A stretch of DNA of 46,623 bases, taken from NCBI RefSeq assembly GCF_006363815.1, contig NZ_RRYT01000034.1:1-46623 (forward strand). The letters run 5' to 3'. The stretch's first letter is position 1, and every line of letters begins with the position of its first letter. The position numbers and the translations under genes were made by a program. Origin of the DNA: Thermomonospora catenispora (GTDB lineage Bacteria; Actinomycetota; Actinomycetes; Streptosporangiales; Streptosporangiaceae). The notes under the pieces are model-generated. The model was not told the DNA's origin, made no database searches, and was given only the letters and a program-made list of their open reading frames with translations. Below, in pieces: positions 6,454-46,623 of this stretch.

Positions 6454-7604
6454 GCTTCATCGAGTCCGAGGAACGTCGTGCCCTGCGGGAGGCCGTGGCG
6501 GAGCTGGGCGCCAAGTACGGGCCGGCCTACTACATCGCCAAGGCCCGTTCGGGGGAGAAGACCCACGAGCTGTGGAACGAGGCCGGCGCGCTCGGCTACC
6601 TGGGCGTCAACATCCCCGAGGAGTACGGCGGCGGGGGCGGCGGGATCGGCGACCTGGCGGCCGTGTGCGAGGAGCTGGCCGCCGCCGGATGCCCCCTGCT
6701 GCTCATGGTGGTCTCCCCGGCGATCTGCGCCACGATCATCACTCGGTTCGGCACCGCGGAGCAGAAGGAGCACTGGCTGCCCCGGTTCGCCGACGGGTCG
6801 GTCAAGATGGCGTTCGCGATCACCGAGCCGGACGCCGGGTCCAACGCGCACCGCATCACCACCCACGCCCGCCGGGACGGCGACGGCTGGGTGCTCAACG
6901 GGCAGAAGACGTTCATCTCCGGGGTCGACGAGGCCGACGCGGTGATGTTCGTGGCCCGCAGCGCCGACCAGCAGGGCAACCTGCGGCCGTCGCTGTTCAT
7001 CGTGCCGACCGACGCGCCCGGCTTCACCTGGACGCCGATCGAGATGGAGATCGTCTCCCCGGAGAAGCAGTTCGTCTGCCACCTCGACGATGTGCGGCTG
7101 CCCTACGAGGCGCTGGTGGGCGAGGAGGACGGCGGATTGCTGCAGCTGTTCGCCGGGCTCAACCCCGAACGGATCATGGCCGCCGCGATGGGCGCCGGGA
7201 TCGGCCGCCTGGCGTTGGGCAAGGCCGTCTCCTACGCCAAGGAGCGTCAGGTCTTCACGGTGCCCATCGGGGCGCACCAGGGCCTGGCGCACCCGCTGGC
7301 CGCCGCCAAGATCGAGCTGGAGCTGGCCCGCCTGATGGCCCAGAAGGCGGCCTGGCTGTACGACAACGGCGACGACCGCGGCGCCGGGGAGGCCGCCAAC
7401 ATGGCCAAGTACGCCGCCGCCGAGGCCGCGGTCCACTGCGTCGACCAGGCCATCCAGACGCACGGCGGGAACGGGCTGACCACCGAGTACGGGGTGGGGA
7501 TGCTCGCCGGGGTGGTCCGGCTGATGCGGATCGCGCCGGTCAGCCGGGAGATGATCCTCAACTACGTCGCCCAGCACTCGCTGGGGCTGCCCAAGTCCTA
7601 CTGA
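6450..7604 (+). CDS. Acyl-CoA dehydrogenase (isovaleryl/citronellyl-CoA type)
   Basis: 384 residues from GTG 6450, overlapping the previous stop and preceded by AGGAGG (6437-6442). FAD-dependent alpha,beta-dehydrogenation of an acyl-CoA. The flavin/substrate segment FAITEPDAGSNAH and the C-terminal HGGNGLTTEYG are present. The usual catalytic glutamate motif (YEGT) near the C terminus is absent. Instead LNPERIM places Glu240 where isovaleryl-CoA dehydrogenase has its catalytic base (LERL motif), which fits branched substrates such as citronellyl- or isovaleryl-CoA. As last gene of the operon it would supply the unsaturated acyl-CoA that the carboxylase uses. Family certain; exact substrate inferred. 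Confidence 0.9.
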   Translation: MSFIESEERRALREAVAELGAKYGPAYYIAKARSGEKTHELWNEAGALGYLGVNIPEEYGGGGGGIGDLAAVCEELAAAGCPLLLMVVSPAICATIITRFGTAEQKEHWLPRFADGSVKMAFAITEPDAGSNAHRITTHARRDGDGWVLNGQKTFISGVDEADAVMFVARSADQQGNLRPSLFIVPTDAPGFTWTPIEMEIVSPEKQFVCHLDDVRLPYEALVGEEDGGLLQLFAGLNPERIMAAAMGAGIGRLALGKAVSYAKERQVFTVPIGAHQGLAHPLAAAKIELELARLMAQKAAWLYDNGDDRGAGEAANMAKYAAAEAAVHCVDQAIQTHGGNGLTTEYGVGMLAGVVRLMRIAPVSREMILNYVAQHSLGLPKSY

Positions 7605-7636
7605 ACCGGCCCGGACCGGCGTCCCGCCGGGCCGGT
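7605..7636. terminator. Bidirectional hairpin terminator
   Basis: ACCGGCCCGG (7605-7614) pairs perfectly with CCGGGCCGGT (7627-7636) over a 12-base loop. It lies between the convergent ends of the acyl-CoA dehydrogenase and the P-loop kinase and so could serve both directions. There is no U-tract, which is usual in this GC range. Confidence 0.65.
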
Positions 7637-7656
7637 GTCGCGTGCCCCGGCGGGAC

Positions 7657-8238
7657 TCACCCCCGGCGCACGAGCGCGTCCAGCTGCTCCGCCAGGCCGG
7701 GCGCCGACAGCCGGTTGTCGACCTCCAGATGCTCGACCGGCGGCGGCACGCCGGGCCGCATCCGCGCCGTGAACTCCTCGAAGGCGGCCAGCTTGCCGCT
7801 GTCCCGGGGCAGCCCGCGGGCGGTCAGCCGGTGGCGCAGGGTCTGCGGGTCGGTGCGGATCCACACCAGCCGCACCGGCGGACCGCCCAGCTCCTCCACC
7901 CACGCCTCCCAGCGCGCGCGGTCATGGATCTGACCGGTGAACGGGCCGCTCAGCATCACCGGGCACCCGTGTCCGCGGATCTGGCGCGCCGTCGCGGTCA
8001 TCCCGGCGTACTCATGCCGCTTGACGTGCTCGTCGTACCAGGGGCCCTCGCGTTCGCCCGGGTCGCGGCCGTGCGCGGCGAGGGTGGCGGCGACGAACGA
8101 CCCGTACATGGTGTCCTTGTCCAGCAGGGCGGGCACCGGGCGCAGCCGGGCCAGCAGGCCGTCGGCGACGGTGCTCTTGCCGCTGCCGGGCGGGCCCGCC
8201 ACCACCCACACCATGCCGGGGACGGTCGGTCTGCTCAT
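7657..8238 (-). CDS. P-loop small-molecule kinase / AAA-type ATPase
   Basis: 193 residues. The Walker A motif GPPGSGKST is near residue 15, followed by [10 protein letters not shown], the pattern of the shikimate/gluconate/chloramphenicol kinase-like P-loop fold. [15 protein letters not shown] segment near residue 140 resembles the NMP-kinase lid region. A phosphotransferase role on a small metabolite, or a zeta-toxin-like kinase role, is possible. No antitoxin gene is adjacent, so I do not favour a toxin. Substrate unknown. It stands alone, convergent with the carboxylase operon. Confidence 0.75.
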
Positions 8239-8258
8239 GAGGGAATCCTCGGGACGTG

Positions 8259-8285
8259 GACGCCCGGACGGCGCCGTCGGGCGTC
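8259..8285. terminator. Hairpin between the enolase-like gene and the kinase gene
   Basis: GACGCCC (8259-8265) pairs with GGGCGTC (8279-8285), and the interior holds a second perfect palindrome, GACGGC/GCCGTC (8267-8278), with a one-base bulge. It lies downstream of the leftward enolase-like gene, just before the kinase start, so it is probably that gene's terminator. The rest of 8239-8464 holds only imperfect repeats of an ACGCCGC unit (8344-8402). Confidence 0.5.
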
Positions 8286-8464
8286 GTGCGGAACGGACCT
8301 GTGAGGGGGAGGGGAGGGAAGAGGACGGTGCGGCCGTGGGCGCGGAGGACGCCGCCCGGAAGACGCCGCCTCGGGAGGCGTCGCTCCGGAGAACGCCGCT
8401 TCACAGGGGAACGCGGTGCCCGGCGGCGGCCGGTCCCGGCGCCCGCCGGCCGTGCGGACGCGGC

Positions 8465-9520
8465 TCAGCACGGGATCCGCATCGTCTCGGTGGCCAGGGC
8501 GGCGATGCGCTTCTCGTCGACCTCGTGCCCGATGCCCGGCTGGGTGAGCGGCACTCCCACCACGCCGCCGGAGGAGCGCACCGGCGGCGACACGAACGCC
8601 GGGCCGCTCGCCGGGTCGGTGACGTCGCTGGGCAGCGTGCAGCCCGGCAGGCCGGCCATCGCGACCGCCGCCGCCTGACCGATCCCGAACGCCCCGGACC
8701 CCTCGCACCACACGTCCCAGCCCGCCGCGTAGGCGCGGTCGTGGGCGCCGCGGGCGGCGGTCACCCCGCCGAACCGGGTGATGTTCAGGCCCAGCGCCCT
8801 CCCGGCCTCCATCCGGATGGCCGCGTCCAGCATGTCCAGGTCGTTGATCTCCGGGCACAGCGCGGCGCTCACCCGCTGTTGCAGCCGGGCGTGCGCGGCC
8901 AGATCCCCGGCGGGGAACGGCCGTTCGATCACCACCGGCCCGTAGGCGTCCAGGGCCTCCAGCGCCGCCAGGTGCTCCGGGGACTCGGTGTAGCGGCCGC
9001 ACGCGTCGATCGCCATCGCCAGGGCGGGGTAGGCGGCGCGGACGGCGCGCACCGGTTCGATGTCCCAGCCGGGCCGGACGGTGAGGGTGATGCGGGTGTG
9101 GCCGCTGCCGACCGCCTGGTTGACCCGGCTCACCAGGGTCTCGACGCCCAGCGAGCCGGCGTCGATCCGGGCGCCGGTCACGATCGAGGTGCGGGTGCCG
9201 CCGAGCGCGTGCGCCAGCGGCAGTCCCCGGGTCCGGCACCACAGGTCCCAGCAGGCGATGTCCACCGCCGCGGCCGCCTGCCGGGTGCCGAACTCGGCGG
9301 TCGCCGACACGTCCTCGGGGCGCTCCCACGACAGGCCCAGCAGGGCCGGCGCCAGTCGTTCGGAGATGTCCGCCCATGTCGTGTCGCCCGGATCGGAGTG
9401 GGCCGCCTCCCCCCAGCCGACGGTGCCGTCCTCGGCGACCAGCCGCACCAGCACGCTCTGCGGCCGCCGCCCGCGCGGCATCGCCACCCGGAAGGCCTCA
9501 CAGCCTCGCACCAGCGGCAC
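8465..9520 (-). CDS. Enolase-superfamily protein (OSBS/NSAR-like), catalytic lysines replaced
   Basis: 351 residues from GTG 9520, with GGAGG four bases upstream; the open frame continues upstream but without a better start. It has the enolase-superfamily layout: an alpha/beta capping domain, then a beta/alpha barrel. From memory of the family, o-succinylbenzoate synthase/N-acylamino-acid racemase proteins read RIKLKI-PGWD, VDAN, IEQP, LDES and NIKPGRVGG at successive strands. Here the same places read RITLTVRPGWD, IDACG, IERPF, CPEIN and NITRFGG. The metal ligands (Asp, Glu, Glu) are kept, but both acid/base lysine positions appear to be threonine. It may be a pseudoenzyme or use a different chemistry. 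The genes on either side give no clue to a pathway. Confidence 0.75.
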   Translation of the reverse strand: MPLVRGCEAFRVAMPRGRRPQSVLVRLVAEDGTVGWGEAAHSDPGDTTWADISERLAPALLGLSWERPEDVSATAEFGTRQAAAAVDIACWDLWCRTRGLPLAHALGGTRTSIVTGARIDAGSLGVETLVSRVNQAVGSGHTRITLTVRPGWDIEPVRAVRAAYPALAMAIDACGRYTESPEHLAALEALDAYGPVVIERPFPAGDLAAHARLQQRVSAALCPEINDLDMLDAAIRMEAGRALGLNITRFGGVTAARGAHDRAYAAGWDVWCEGSGAFGIGQAAAVAMAGLPGCTLPSDVTDPASGPAFVSPPVRSSGGVVGVPLTQPGIGHEVDEKRIAALATETMRIPC

Positions 9521-25680: not shown

Positions 25681-25754
25681 AAGGGGGTGAGCCACCGGTT
25701 GGGCGGCTGGTCTCCAAAACCAGCGAAAAGCAGGTTCGACTCCTGCCGCCCCTG
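25681..25754 (+). tRNA. Divergent tRNA-Trp (CCA anticodon), weak acceptor stem
   Basis: The anticodon arm CTGGT-CTCCAAA-ACCAG (CCA at 25714-25716), the T arm GCAGG-TTCGACT-CCTGC, a T8, a D loop with GG, and a G discriminator are all in the right places. The acceptor, however, reads AAGGGGG against CGCCCCT, giving A/C and G/G mismatches. If the 5' end is shifted to GGGGGTG, all seven pairs form (two as G-T) but the position-8 T and D arm no longer fit. The variable loop has six bases. Either a divergent second tRNA-Trp or a decaying copy. It ends one base before the tRNA-Ala. CCA is not encoded. Confidence 0.7.
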
Positions 25755-25755
25755 C

Positions 25756-25827
25756 GGGACCGTGGTGTCAATGGGAACACGCCTGCCTTGCAAGCAGGAA
25801 TTCCGGGTTCGAATCCCGGCGGCTCCA
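25756..25827 (+). tRNA. Divergent tRNA-Ala (TGC anticodon)
   Basis: Acceptor GGGACCG/CGGCTCC pairs with the alanine identity element G3-U70 intact and one A4/C69 mismatch. D stem GTGT/ACAC is perfect. Anticodon arm CCTGC-CTTGCAA-GCAGG has TGC. T arm is CCGGG-TTCGAAT-CCCGG, with discriminator A. Only one base separates it from the upstream tRNA-Trp-like sequence. It differs widely outside the anticodon arm from the usual actinomycete tRNA-Ala(TGC), as I recall that sequence, so it looks like a diverged extra copy. CCA is not encoded. Confidence 0.8.
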
Positions 25828-25840
25828 CGCGATGACGGTC

Positions 25841-25896
25841 GCACGGAGGGGCGTCCTCCGCCGCGACGGCGAACGGCCTCGGGCGCCCCTCCGTGC
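25841..25896 (+). terminator. Strong hairpin after the tRNA pair
   Basis: GCACGGAGGGGCG (25841-25853) and CGCCCCTCCGTGC (25884-25896) form a perfect 13-bp stem, with a smaller hairpin in the 30-base interior. It begins 14 bases past the tRNA-Ala and probably terminates that transcript. A second perfect stem, GGCGGAC/GTCCGCC (25921-25938), follows before the tRNA-Ser. Confidence 0.65.
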
Positions 25897-25954
25897 AGCC
25901 CCCTCGCGCCGCGGTCGCGCGGCGGACTTCCGTCCGCCGGGACCGGTTCGACGA

Positions 25955-26039
25955 GGAAGGTTGGCCGAGCGGTAAGGCAGTCGTCTCGAAAACGACCGTC
26001 AGGGTGACACCTGCCCAGGTTCGAATCCTGGACCTTCCG
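25955..26039 (+). tRNA. tRNA-Ser (CGA anticodon)
   Basis: A class II tRNA of 85 bases. Acceptor GGAAGGT/ACCTTCC is perfect. The anticodon arm is GTCGT-CTCGAAA-ACGAC with CGA, followed by a long variable arm typical of Ser. The T arm is CCAGG-TTCGAAT-CCTGG, with a G discriminator as in bacterial tRNA-Ser. CCA is not encoded. Confidence 0.95.
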
Positions 26040-26059
26040 CGCGACTCTTCCGGATGACC

Positions 26060-42113: not shown

Positions 42114-42142
42114 TTGATTTCCGGGCAGGTCCGGCCTAGTCT
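42114..42142 (+). promoter_or_regulatory. Sigma-A-type promoter of the recombination operon
   Basis: TTGATT (42114-42119), 17-base spacer, TAGTCT (42137-42142). The predicted start of transcription is near 42149, putting the LexA-type box at about +5 to +21. Confidence 0.6.
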
Positions 42143-42153
42143 GAACGTGTCAA

Positions 42154-42169
42154 CCGAACATATGTGCGA
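42154..42169. promoter_or_regulatory. LexA (SOS) box
   Basis: CCGAACATATGTGCGA agrees at 14 of 16 positions with the palindromic actinobacterial SOS box TCGAAC-N4-GTTCGA when ATAT fills the centre. The central CGAAC-N4-GT core is intact. It lies just downstream of the candidate start of transcription of an operon of DNA-repair genes, where bound LexA would block RNA polymerase. Confidence 0.7.
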
Positions 42170-42257
42170 ATGAGGCGAGACTGCAGCCTCCAGAGTCACT
42201 CCCCCCACCACCGACTCCTGCATCCCGAGCGCGGTCAGTCTCACCGAGGGGAGTGAC

Positions 42258-43166
42258 ATGGACACCTTCGTCCCGGCCACCAAGGAGAAGGCCAAGGCCC
42301 GCATCGCGCTCACCGGGCCCACCGGATCGGGCAAGACCTACACGGCGCTGATCACGGCCCGGGTGCTCGGCGAGCGGATCGCCCTCATCGACACCGAGCG
42401 CGGCAGCGCCTCCAAGTACGCCGACGAGTTCGCCTTCCAGACCCTGCAGCTCACGACGTTCGAGCCGCAGACGCTCGTCAAGGCGCTCGCGGTGGCCGCC
42501 CACGAGGGCTTCGACGTCGTGATCGTCGACTCGCTCTCGCACTTCTGGTCCGGCACCGGGGGGATGCTGGAGCAGGTCGACAACGCCGCCAAGCGCGTCG
42601 GCTCGGGCAACACCTTCGTCGGCTGGAAGGAGGCCCGGCCCCTGGAACGGGCGATGATCGACGCCCTGCTGGCCTATCCGGGCCACCTCATCGTCACCAT
42701 GCGCGCCAAGACCGACTACGTCATCGAGACCGACGATCGGGGGCGCAAGGTGCCGCGCAAGGTCGGGCTCAAGCCCGAGCAGCGGGAGGGGATCGAGTAC
42801 GAATTCGACATCGTCGGCGATCTCGACCACGAGAACACCCTGGTGATCTCCAAGTCCCGGGCGAAGGCCCTGTCGGGACGGGTGATCCGCAAACCGGGCG
42901 CGGAGTTCGGCGAGGCCGTCCTCGGCTGGCTCAACGCCGGCGCACCGGCCAAGACCGTGCGGGACTACGTCGAGGCGGCCACCGCCTCCGACGCCACCTA
43001 CGAGAAGCTGCGCACCCTCTACAACGAGGCGCGCCGGCACAACATGCTCGGCGCCGCCATCTTGGACGGCGAGGAGTCCATCACCCTCGGCGAGCTGATC
43101 ACGCAGCGCGGAGCCGAGGCCAAGAACCGGGCCTCCCGGAGCGCACGGCGGGGCACGGCCGCCTGA
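42258..43166 (+). CDS. Sak4-like RecA-core ATPase (single-strand annealing recombinase type)
   Basis: 302 residues. A single RecA-like ATPase core: Walker A GPTGSGKT (20-27), a strand ending in [17 protein letters not shown] (nucleotide/Mg contacts), and Walker [12 protein letters not shown] with Asp91. [17 protein letters not shown] in the second half is typical of phage Sak4-type ATPases. It lacks the RecA N- and C-terminal domains and so is not the cellular RecA. Sak4 proteins promote SSB-stimulated annealing in phage recombination. Here it is a chromosomal gene with a LexA box upstream and an ssb gene downstream. Family inferred by motif, from memory; database annotation is likely just AAA ATPase. 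Confidence 0.8.
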
Positions 43167-43308
43167 GCCGTCGCGGCGCGCGCCGTCCCGGCGCCCTGCC
43201 TTCGGCGGCGCGCACCGGGCGCGGCGGTGCGTTCCACCGCGCCGTCCGCCGCGCCCACCGGATCGAACGAGCACGGGCAGAGGACCATCTGCCGGAGAGG
43301 AAGCCGCC

Positions 43309-43779
43309 ATGGCCGGCGAAACCGTCATCACGGTGGTCGGCAACCTGACCGACGACCCCGAGGTGCGCTCCACCGCCAACGGCCCCGTCGCGCACTTCAC
43401 CGTGGCGTCCACGCCGCGGGTGTTCAACCGGGAGACCGGCGGGTGGCAGGACGCCGACACGTTGTTCCTGCACTGCTCGGCCTGGCGGAGCCTGGCCGAG
43501 CACGTCGCCGCCTCCCTGCGCCGCGGCACCCGCGTCATCGCCCGGGGGAGGGTGCGCCAACGGACGTACCAGACCCAGGAGGGCGAACGCCGCACCGTGA
43601 TCGAATGCGAGGTCGACGAGGTGGGCCCTTCGCTGCGCTACGCCACCGCGCAGGTCGGCAAGGTCCCGCCGCGGCCCGGCTCCCCGGGCGCCCGCCGCGA
43701 GGCGGGCCCGACCGCCGCCGACCCGTTCGCCTCCGACGAGGGACGGGACGTCTTCGAGGGGAGCGGCGATCCGTTCTGA
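43309..43779 (+). CDS. ssb: Single-stranded DNA-binding protein (dedicated SSB)
   Basis: 156 residues. OB-fold at residues 5-112 ([20 protein letters not shown], then [20 protein letters not shown] and [15 protein letters not shown]). A short linker is followed by a C-terminal tip EGSGDPF rather than the strongly acidic DDDIPF-like peptide of housekeeping SSB. It is not next to rpsF/rpsR as the main ssb is, so it is probably an accessory SSB working with the Sak4-like ATPase 142 bases upstream. A ribosome binding site (GAGAGGAAG) precedes ATG 43309. Confidence 0.9.
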
Positions 43780-43806
43780 CCGGCATCGGCCGCCCCAGGC
43801 GGCGCG

Positions 43807-43833
43807 GGCGCCGGAGAAGGGCGCACCGGCGCC
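43807..43833 (+). terminator. Hairpin between ssb and sbcD
   Basis: GGCGCCGG (43807-43814) and CCGGCGCC (43826-43833) pair perfectly over an 11-base interior. It could partly terminate, or stabilise the end of, the sak4-ssb message, and so set the ratio of SSB to SbcCD. Confidence 0.4.
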
Positions 43834-43875
43834 GCGCGGACGCCGCACGGAATCGCAGAGGATGAGACGGAGCGC

Positions 43876-45072
43876 ATGAGGTTCCTGCACACCTCGGACT
43901 GGCATGTCGGCAAGGCGCTCAAGGGCCGCGGCCGGCTCGACGAGCAGCGAGCGGTCCTGGACGAGATCGTCCGGGCGGCGCGCGACCACCGGGTCGACGC
44001 GGTCCTCGTCGCCGGGGACCTGTATGAGTCCGCCGCCCCCTCGGCGCAGGCCCAGCGGCTGGTCGTCCAGACGCTGCTCGCGCTGCGCGACACCGGCGCC
44101 GAGGTCATCGCGATCGCCGGCAACCACGACCACGCCGCCGTCTTCGACGCCTACCGGCCGCTCATGGCCAGTGCCGGGATCACCCTGGCCGGCGGAGTCC
44201 GCACCGCGGCCGAAGGCGGGGTGGTCGAGTTCACCGCCCGCTCGACGGGGGAGCCGGTCGTCGTCGCCATGCTGCCGTTCCTGCCGCACCACCGCGCGGT
44301 GCGCGCCGCCCAGCTCATCGGCGGCACGCCGCAGCAGGCCACGGCCGACTACGGCCGGCTGGTGGGGGACCTCCTCGCCGCGCTCGCCGAGGGCTTCCGC
44401 GCCGATGCGGTCAATCTGGTGACCGCGCACCTGATGACGGCCGGGGGAAGGCTCGGCGGAGGGGAGCGACCCGCCCAGTCGATCGTCGACTACTGGGTCC
44501 CGGTCGACGTCTTCCCGCCTACCGCGAACTACGTCGCGCTCGGCCACCTGCACCGCCGCCAGGCCGTGCCGGCGCCGTGCCCGGTGCACTACTGCGGCAG
44601 CCCGATGGCCCTGGACTTCGGCGAGGAGGACGATCCGGCGATGGTCCTCCTCGTCGAGGCCGAGCCCGGCGCCCCCGCCGACGTCGTCGCCGAAGTGCCC
44701 CTCACCGCCGGACGGCGGCTGCGCACCGTGCACGGCACCGTCGAGGAACTGGCCCGCCGCGCGGACTCCTTCGGCGACGACCATCTGCGGGTGGTGCTCA
44801 ACGAGCCGGCCCGCGCCGGCCTGCGGCAGGAGGTGCAGCGGCTGCTCCCGAACGCGCTGGAGGTCCGCATCGCCCCGGAGTTCGCCGCGCCGGCGAACCC
44901 CGGGCGGCGACGCGCGCCGGCCGGCGATGCGCACCGCAGCCCGGCCGAGCTGTTCCACGAGTACTGCCTCGCCCGCGGGGTGGCCGACCCCCACGTCGAG
45001 GCCCTGTTCGCCGGGCTCCTCGACCGGGTGACCGCCGAAGAGGCCCGGGCCGCGGAGAAGGACTCCTCATGA
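43876..45072 (+). CDS. sbcD: SbcD (Mre11-like) nuclease subunit
   Basis: 398 residues. Metallophosphatase motifs are in order: SDWHVGK (Asp8, His10), VAGDLYE (Asp48), GNHD (Asn83, His84, Asp85), a downstream His in VTAHLM (His185), and LGHLH (His224, His226). The C-terminal third is the capping/dimer domain that contacts SbcC. With SbcC it forms the ATP-dependent nuclease that cleaves hairpins and processes blocked double-strand ends. The last bases overlap the sbcC start (ATGA), which fixes the pair as co-translated. Confidence 0.93.
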   Translation: MRFLHTSDWHVGKALKGRGRLDEQRAVLDEIVRAARDHRVDAVLVAGDLYESAAPSAQAQRLVVQTLLALRDTGAEVIAIAGNHDHAAVFDAYRPLMASAGITLAGGVRTAAEGGVVEFTARSTGEPVVVAMLPFLPHHRAVRAAQLIGGTPQQATADYGRLVGDLLAALAEGFRADAVNLVTAHLMTAGGRLGGGERPAQSIVDYWVPVDVFPPTANYVALGHLHRRQAVPAPCPVHYCGSPMALDFGEEDDPAMVLLVEAEPGAPADVVAEVPLTAGRRLRTVHGTVEELARRADSFGDDHLRVVLNEPARAGLRQEVQRLLPNALEVRIAPEFAAPANPGRRRAPAGDAHRSPAELFHEYCLARGVADPHVEALFAGLLDRVTAEEARAAEKDSS

Positions 45073-46623
45073 GGCCGGTGCTGCTGGAGATGAACGGCTT
45101 CGCCTCCTTCCGGGAGCCGGCCGAGGTGGACTTCCGCGGAGCGGACTACTTCGCCCTCGTCGGCCCGACCGGATCGGGCAAGTCCACCGTCGTCGACGCG
45201 ATCACGTTCGCGCTGTACGGGTCGGCTCCGCGGTGGGGCAACCGCCGCGCGGTGGCCAACGCGCTGGCGCCGACCGCCGACCGCGGCGTCGTCCGGCTCG
45301 TCTTCGACGTCGCCGGGCACCGCTACATCGCCGCCCGGGAGCTGCGCCGCGTCGGCGACGGCGTCACGGTCAAGAACGCCCGGCTGGAGCGGCTCTTGGA
45401 TCCGGACGCGCTCGGCGCGCCCGACGACGCGACCCGGGTGCTCGCCGCCGACTCGGCGGTCACCCCGGCGGTGGAACGGCTGCTGGGGATGCCGTTCGAG
45501 CACTTCGCCACCTGCGTGGTGCTGCCGCAGGGGGCCTTCGCCGAATTCCTCCATGCGCAGCCGGCCAAGCGGCAGGACATCCTCGTCAAGCTGATGGGGC
45601 TGGAGGTCTACCCGCGGATCGCGCAGGCGGCGAACGCCCTGGCCGAGGCGGAGAGGCAGCGCGTCGACCTGCTCACCCGGCAGCTGGAGGGGTTCGCCGA
45701 CGCGACCGACCGCGCCCGGCGGGCGGCCCGGCGCCGGGTGGCCGCGCTGGAGAAGACCGCCGAACGGGTGCGCGCGGCCCTGCCCGCCCTCGCGGCCCAC
45801 GAGGCGGCGGCGACCCGGGCGCGCGAGGACTGCGCGACGCTGACCGCCGAGCGTGAGCTGCTGGAAGCGGTCGTCGCACCGGTCGGACTCGAGGAGCTCG
45901 CCGAACGGGACCGCGCCGTCTCCTCCGCCGCCCGGGCCGCCGCCGAGGAGCTCGCCGAGGCCGAGGCGGCCGACACGGCCGCCCGGGAACGCCTCGCCGC
46001 GGCGCCGCCCCGCTCCCTTCTCGAACGGACCCGCCGCGCCCACGCCGACCTCGACGCGCTGCACCGGAGGACGGAGAAGGTCGAGGAGCTGCATCGGCGG
46101 CAGACCGCGGCCCTCGCGGCCGTGGCCGCCGCCCGGCGCCGGGCCGCCTCCCGCGCCCGGCGGGCGCGTCGGGAACTGCAGAGCGCGGAGCGGGCCCATC
46201 TCGTCGCGGCGCTGCGCCCGCGGCTGCGGAGCGGACGGCCCTGCCCGGTCTGCGAGCGGCCGGTGGAGGCGGTGCCCGGCCCGCCGCCCGCGCCCGACCT
46301 GGAGGCGGCCGAACGGGCGCGCCTGCGGGCCGACCGAGAGGCCGAGCGCCTGAACGACGCATGGATGCGGGCCTCCCGAGCCGAGCAGTCGACCGCCGAC
46401 GAACTGGCCGCCCTCGCCGAACGGCTCACCGCGGTGCGCGCCGCCCTCGACGGCGCCCCCTCCGCGGAACAGGCGGCCGCCGAGCTGGAGCGACGGGACC
46501 GGCTGGAGCGCGAGGCCGCCGCCGCGGACGCCGAGGTGCGGCGGGCGCGGGCCGCCAAGGCCGACGCCGAGCAGGCCGCCGCGGACATGCGCGAGGAGAC
46601 CCGGGCGGCCTGGGCGGCGCTGG
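45069..46623 (+). CDS. sbcC: SbcC (Rad50-like) ATPase, 5' part; runs off the window
   Basis: Starts at ATG 45069, overlapping the sbcD stop, and continues without a stop to the window end (518 codons seen). Walker A GPTGSGKST is near residue 32, with the Q-loop region VLPQGAFAEFLHA. A long Ala/Arg/Glu coiled-coil follows, with the zinc hook CPVC at residues 392-395, then the returning coiled-coil. The C-terminal ATPase half (signature and Walker B) is beyond the end. It partners SbcD in processing DNA ends; expression with sak4 and ssb from a probable SOS promoter is implied by the layout. Confidence 0.93.
   Translation, partial: MRPVLLEMNGFASFREPAEVDFRGADYFALVGPTGSGKSTVVDAITFALYGSAPRWGNRRAVANALAPTADRGVVRLVFDVAGHRYIAARELRRVGDGVTVKNARLERLLDPDALGAPDDATRVLAADSAVTPAVERLLGMPFEHFATCVVLPQGAFAEFLHAQPAKRQDILVKLMGLEVYPRIAQAANALAEAERQRVDLLTRQLEGFADATDRARRAARRRVAALEKTAERVRAALPALAAHEAAATRAREDCATLTAERELLEAVVAPVGLEELAERDRAVSSAARAAAEELAEAEAADTAARERLAAAPPRSLLERTRRAHADLDALHRRTEKVEELHRRQTAALAAVAAARRRAASRARRARRELQSAERAHLVAALRPRLRSGRPCPVCERPVEAVPGPPPAPDLEAAERARLRADREAERLNDAWMRASRAEQSTADELAALAERLTAVRAALDGAPSAEQAAAELERRDRLEREAAAADAEVRRARAAKADAEQAAADMREETRAAWAAL

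Follow-up and report, generated by a model that had tools for sequence, protein, structure and literature searches.

The right end of a 46,623-nucleotide stretch of Thermomonospora catenispora DNA (hereafter the window, which is the whole of contig C37 in a 5.35 Mb genome of 109 contigs) carries four plus-strand genes, encoding an ATPase assigned to the Sak4 superfamily, a single-stranded DNA-binding protein (SSB) and the two subunits of the SbcCD nuclease, arranged behind a predicted promoter and a LexA-type operator. Here, we describe this cluster, its continuation on a second contig and its relatives in other actinobacteria, before weighing what such a combination of genes might do. The features of the window, all on the plus strand, are as follows.

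42114..42142, plus strand: predicted promoter TTGATT-N17-TAGTCT (TTGATT at 42114-42119, TAGTCT at 42137-42142), from the sequence and its alignment with 14 other loci.
42154..42169, plus strand: LexA-type operator CCGAACATATGTGCGA, 11 bases past the -10 element and beginning 104 bases before the ATPase start.
42258..43166, plus strand: Sak4-superfamily RecA-core ATPase, 302 amino acids, from its open reading frame and profile matches.
43309..43779, plus strand: accessory SSB, 156 amino acids, C-terminal DPF (PF00436 1.6e-23; NCBIfam PRK07772 above cut-off).
43876..45072, plus strand: accessory SbcD nuclease subunit, 398 amino acids (TIGR00619 2.3e-50, above cut-off).
45069..46623, plus strand: accessory SbcC, first 518 residues, from the ATG at 45069 to the contig end (TIGR00618 6.7e-34).

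The four genes and their order are real and lie where an earlier note on this DNA had placed them, as do the promoter and box, whose sequence is as it described. The ssb and sbcD genes are preceded by gaps of 142 and 96 bases, respectively, while sbcD and sbcC overlap by four bases (ATGA), and a scan for terminator-like sites between 41400 and 45200 found none (0.7 expected by chance). The gap before ssb contains a GC-rich fold that is somewhat better than its shuffled counterparts (z -1.55; 15 of 200 as good).

The identities given to the SSB and SbcD hold above the NCBIfam cut-offs just listed, and SbcD has the phosphoesterase motifs DWHVG, GD, GNHD and GHLH. SbcC is likewise recognizable, with a Walker A motif and a CPVC hook in the window, and falls below whole-protein cut-offs because it is cut by the contig end. 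The missing part was located by searching the same genome with the full-length SbcC of a related locus (L028). Query residues 1-517 match the N-terminal half in the window (64% identity), and residues 530-810 match the C-terminal half, which opens contig C68 (75%) and has the signature LSGGE and the Walker B motif FLDEGF. Next on C68, on the same strand, come second copies of recA and ruvB.

C68:846, same strand as recA2 and ruvB2: end of the SbcC frame.
C68:929-2097, same strand as the sbcC end: recA2, passing the NCBIfam cut-off.
C68:2094-3197, same strand as recA2: ruvB2, passing the NCBIfam cut-off.

The piece of RecA2 encoded ahead of a scaffold N matches PF00154 at 2e-122 and TIGR02012 with 423.7 bits, above cut-off, and the genes past ruvB2 appear by eye to be unrelated. 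The unit is thus probably annealase-ssb-sbcD-sbcC-recA2-ruvB2, which would be read as a single transcript spanning both contigs. The reading frame of recA2 runs across a single scaffold N whose flank is repeated, and the other recA of the genome, on contig C45, has the same kind of joint; as both copies share it, we read both breaks as assembly artefacts and reject the idea that these apparent frameshifts mark pseudogenes. A further LexA-type match, at C68:978, falls inside the recA2 codons for IERQFG and is taken as chance. Because the continuation of the cluster on C68 encodes a RecA and a RuvB of its own, the suggestion that it would act independently of RecA is not supported.

The SSB, SbcCD, RecA2 and RuvB2 of the cluster are all additional copies. 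The genome encodes other SSBs on C54 (58% identical, beside a ribosomal S6 gene) and C11 (44%), another sbcDC pair on C98 (SbcD 53% identical to that of the window, SbcC 42% to the L028 query), the recA on C45, which has its own LexA-type box TCGAACGGATGTTCGG, and another ruvB on C30 (74%). The window's sbcDC is thus not the cell's sole copy. The SSB ends in SGDPF, and it and the 23 SSBs called in related loci all end in PF; as the C54 protein does so too, the tail does not single out the SSB of the window.

A single pattern-based scan of genome contigs from 84,980 species recovered 40 loci, a lower bound since exact peptide patterns were used, of which 26 (L010-L034 and L043) are closely related to the window: 23 from Streptomyces, one from Streptacidiphilus and two from Streptosporangium. 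Their ATPases are 75-80% identical to that of the window, whose closest relatives are actinobacterial, and in a 48-row tree the window, these loci and one from a further genome (L143) form one group with a support of 97/100. At a locus outside these 26, L049 from Sulfobacillus benefaciens, two tandem ATPase relatives lie side by side (6993-8912).

The box of the window matches 10 of the 12 defined bases of the LexA-type palindrome, which is the 14/16 claimed previously if the four N positions are counted, and fits CGAAC-N4-GNNCGA, the core of the LexA consensus of Streptomyces venezuelae (PMC9380542). Sites with up to two mismatches are also common, numbering six in the window (this box among them) against 1.34 expected and 467 genome-wide against 213 in a reversed control, and a generic sigma-70 scan found no promoter at 42114-42142. 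When the regions before the ATPase in the window and in 14 of the 26 related loci are aligned, with hexamers counted by eye, the box falls in the columns occupied by the relatives' palindrome; the -35-like hexamer reads TTGATT in ten, TGGATT in four and TTGAAT in one, and a -10-like TANNNT is found in 14 of 15. It is this comparison, aligning both elements across relatives, that makes the promoter and box of the window credible. In 24 of the 26 loci, the ATPase is preceded at a distance of 80-140 bp by an exact TCGAAY-N4-RTTCGA palindrome, and these are the only exact sites in the 374,926 bases of the 26 loci; the exceptions are L011, where the contig has just 42 bases before the ATPase, and L012, in which the half-sites are one base closer. 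A further locus, from genome G326, also has an exact site. Conservation across species thus backs the LexA-type site at the promoter.

We consider LexA control of the cluster likely, with a reserve for the variant TCGAAT form of the site discussed below. The genome's own lexA (TIGR00498, 252.7 bits) is preceded by TCGAACTGGCATTCGA and two one-mismatch sites, the recA operator of Streptomyces venezuelae is TCGAACATCCATTC, and the consensus for the genome of that species is tCGAAC-N4-GNNCGa (PMC9380542). As a separate observation, the three LexA-type boxes before lexA (L159, G000:C33:54678-54773) could give graded control of that gene. A leader stretch, GAACCGCCGTCG, is conserved among relatives; a leader hairpin masking the ATPase ribosome site was considered and rejected, as five leaders, including that of the window, fold no better than shuffled sequences (z 0.26 to 1.05).

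Gene content of the 26 loci was assessed by tblastn at 1e-6, with several contigs truncated and some matches partial, and recurring proteins were named from one representative each. A small phage-type protein, X171 (phrog_11955), occurs in all 26, although in L027 as a piece of just 47 amino acids; SSB is present in 24, RecA2 in 22, a zinc-finger protein (Y260, Phage_zn_bind_8) in 18, and RuvB and a PD-(D/E)XK nuclease in 15 each. Less frequent are an RNase H-like protein (X327, matching phage RNase H phrog_2259) in five, Ku near the module in four, RuvC plus RuvA in three and SbcD plus SbcC in three (L013, L028 and L029), with a 33-residue SbcD remnant in L015. X171, Y260 and X327 have no match in the window by the same search. 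What recurs is therefore a wider module, composed of the ATPase, the phage-type small protein, SSB and RecA2, often with RuvB and sometimes with SbcCD or Ku.

RuvC, RuvA and RuvB genes lie directly upstream of the ATPase module in L032, L034 and L043 (in L034, RuvA is above the NCBIfam cut-off and RuvC below it), and Ku, RadA and RuvB-like genes lie upstream in L013 (3195-7161) and L015 (3098-7094), both of which have partial PD-(D/E)XK nuclease matches downstream. Two full-length RecA proteins were found in 12 of the 14 genomes tested, all of which carry one of these loci. In a RecA tree of 28 rows, whose bootstrap had not settled, 11 of the 14 RecA rows from islands lie apart from the housekeeping copies, those of L010 and L027 are placed with housekeeping RecA of Streptomyces and the C68 copy forms a long branch, so that a single origin of RecA2 is not shown by this tree.

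The assignment of the ATPase to the Sak4 superfamily is supported by its RecA-core fold, as in solved Sak4, and by a match to Pfam AAA_24 (PF13479) of 97.8 bits, well above the cut-off of 27, AAA_24 being the family used for Sak4 annealases (PMC8093625). In a PHROG search it matches the Sak4-like phrog_124 at 6.4e-8. The authentic Sak4 of phage HK620 matches the same two families, AAA_24 at 5.8e-7 (30 bits) and phrog_124 at 1.9e-5, and its own family, phrog_2872, is not among the PHROG matches of the window ATPase. The naming of the gene as Sak4-like thus holds at the superfamily level, and annealing by its product is a prediction.

Our preferred explanation, to which we give a probability of about 0.62, is that the cluster is an accessory homologous-recombination operon under LexA control, spread patchily and probably horizontally, in which phage annealing parts have been combined with duplicated repair genes. 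Within these families, SbcCD trims blocked DNA ends, SSB coats single strands, RecA exchanges strands and RuvB drives branch migration, and finding them together under a single operator of the damage type suggests a self-contained kit for break repair. Upon DNA damage, the cell's RecA would trigger LexA cleavage and so free the promoter at 42114-42142; SbcCD would then trim ends that are blocked or folded into hairpins, the SSB of the operon would coat the single strands and the Sak4-type ATPase, docking on the SSB-coated DNA via the SSB tail, would anneal complementary strands, before RecA2 and RuvB2 take over strand exchange and branch migration. Both the damage induction and the cooperation between the products are predictions. 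In the HK620 system, annealing of SSB-coated DNA by Sak4 depends on the six C-terminal residues of SSB (PMC5928155).

Several observations weigh against this explanation. For the ATPase, the best-matching phage family is phrog_1366 (3.4e-90), which is without an assigned function; a pairwise BLASTP against the Sak4 of HK620 gives no significant match (E 0.29), the best solved matches in Foldseek are KaiC domains rather than Sak4, and the 8.9 kb around an ATPase relative in phage TChen contain no gene annotated as an SSB or recombinase. HK620 Sak4 in vitro performed no strand exchange and did not stimulate the RecA reaction (PMC5928155), so any link between the ATPase and RecA2 may differ. For the operon, the order sak4-ssb-sbcD-sbcC, which the earlier note expected to be conserved, was found in none of the 26 related loci, and none of four other genomes of the genus matches the ATPase at 0.001. 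The ends of C37 and C68 share no exact overlap of at least 10 bases, such that their proposed joint is drawn from the complementarity of the two SbcC halves. For the operator, the box of the window is degenerate and weak on its own, and the form present in 12 of the 26 relatives, TCGAAT-N4-ATTCGA, is missing the C from each LexA half-site.

The main rival is that the ATPase, rather than being an annealase, is a mediator or paralogue of the RAD51-paralogue type, loading or stabilizing RecA2 on SSB-coated DNA. We judge it the less probable role, and rather unlikely: membership of AAA_24 associates the protein with annealases, and at L012, in a genome with only one RecA, RecA2 is missing while the ATPase and SSB are kept.

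A further alternative, less probable again, is that the module is a captured phage set that mainly serves mobile elements, aiding recombination of phages, plasmids or the island itself. Relatives of the ATPase are held by 409 phage and 41 plasmid records, the representative sequences of X171, Y260 and X327 have matches among phage families, and the distribution is patchy. Among 60 genomes, only three match at 0.001, namely the genome itself, one at 48% and one through a 64-residue piece. Across the class, six of 394 genomes reach 1e-40, of which only G326 and the genome of the window fall in the island group. An empty-site test via the neighbouring P450 gene in eight genomes gave a best match of 50%, outside the genus, and 37% at most within it, too distant to provide usable synteny. 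Speaking against a primarily mobile role, identity is below 60% for the phage copies and no higher than 63% for the plasmid copies, the only phage row and the only plasmid row of the 48-row tree fall outside the island group, and the island adds RecA, RuvB, SbcCD and Ku of cellular type.

That the conserved palindrome is bound by a regulator other than LexA seems improbable to us, somewhat more so than the mobile-element role. The TCGAAT form departs from CGAAC in both halves and the window's own box has a T-to-G change in its second half; against this, of the other exact sites in relatives, 11 read TCGAAC-N4-ATTCGA and that of L010 is the perfect LexA form, and TCGAAC-N4-ATTC is found at the genome's own lexA and at S. 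venezuelae recA (PMC9380542). Among the protein clusters, no regulator recurs inside the module, a TetR-like gene (by eye) being seen in the flanks of five loci.

A chance grouping of four ordinary, separately transcribed repair genes, which the gaps before ssb and sbcD and the stable fold in the first of them might suggest, is very improbable given that the ATPase and SSB are linked in 24 of 26 loci, sbcDC sits in the same cluster in three, no terminator was found, sbcD and sbcC overlap and the genome has further SSB, SbcCD, RecA and RuvB copies elsewhere. An anti-phage defence role was also considered and rejected: eight proteins scanned with PADLOC gave no named system, and the matches, of SbcC to SMC-type models (LmuB 7.5e-22, mad3 1.6e-20), of the nuclease to DruK (1.8e-12) and Cas4 models and of the ATPase to mad8 (6.1e-5), fit general superfamilies.

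The individual parts, and the pairings of sak4 with ssb and with sbcC, are known from phages. In the sak4-ssb modules of HK620 and others (PMC5928155), a RecA-core AAA_24 ATPase gene adjoins ssb as it does here; the present cluster differs in being chromosomal, in having an SSB of cellular type (PRK07772) rather than DUF669 and in being joined to SbcCD, RecA2, RuvB2 and a LexA-type operator. In several streptococcal phages sak4 is already reported to be accompanied by sbcC (PMC8093625), again in a phage setting, and the available text of that report mentions neither SbcD, RecA, RuvB nor a LexA site. The likeness to cellular SbcCD of the Mre11-Rad50 type lies in the motifs and overlapping genes described above, the difference being that this is an extra copy, beside the C98 pair, set in a recombination cluster.

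Among regulatory and repair systems of actinobacteria, the LexA/SOS regulon of S. venezuelae has an operator of the same type and includes recA and ruvCA, whereas that species has one recA and the part of the report available to us names no Sak4 operon (PMC9380542). The variable Ku genes of Streptomyces ambofaciens are likewise accessory double-strand-break repair genes, but act in end joining and were not induced by mitomycin C, and a Sak4-RecA2 module is undescribed in the accessible portion of that work (PMC5124664). A search of the open literature by titles and the starts of abstracts, with subscription journals and preprints largely outside it, found no description of a sak4-ssb-sbcDC or second-recA operon in Streptomyces and no earlier account of a chromosomal LexA-type module with RecA2 and RuvB.

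Other arrangements were seen in passing. At L111 (G015:C158, 4331-11649) and L112 (G049:C425, 690-8004), an SbcD 63% identical to that of the window and SbcC are flanked by a protein of 574-589 amino acids taken by eye for HerA-like, one copy of which has weak FtsK and terminase PHROG matches and no Pfam match and the other no NCBIfam match; on the other flank of sbcDC is a further protein, which in L112 has a weak NurA match (0.0039, below the Pfam cut-off). This order resembles the archaeal HerA-Mre11-Rad50-NurA operon. Within the window, at 25683-26040, ARAGORN predicts tRNA-Trp and tRNA-Ala back to back without a gap, then tRNA-Ser, an odd spacing that may mark false predictions or a remnant.

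If the proposed operon is borne out, it would be an example of a bacterial SOS operon that has incorporated annealing parts of phages, and the ATPase and SSB pair would be candidate tools for recombineering in actinobacteria. The recombination pathway of Streptomyces is described as atypical (PMC5124664). A damage-switched accessory set of this kind would be a testable source of strain differences in damage survival and genome rearrangement. Streptomyces chromosomes are large, linear and unstable. Tentatively, and at somewhat less than even odds, actinobacteria may exchange a complete, LexA-switched second recombination system, consisting of a phage-type annealase, a partner protein, its own SSB, RecA and RuvB, a nuclease that is either SbcCD or of RecB type and, in some cases, Ku, which would form a separate pathway beside the housekeeping one and help to hold large, break-prone chromosomes together.

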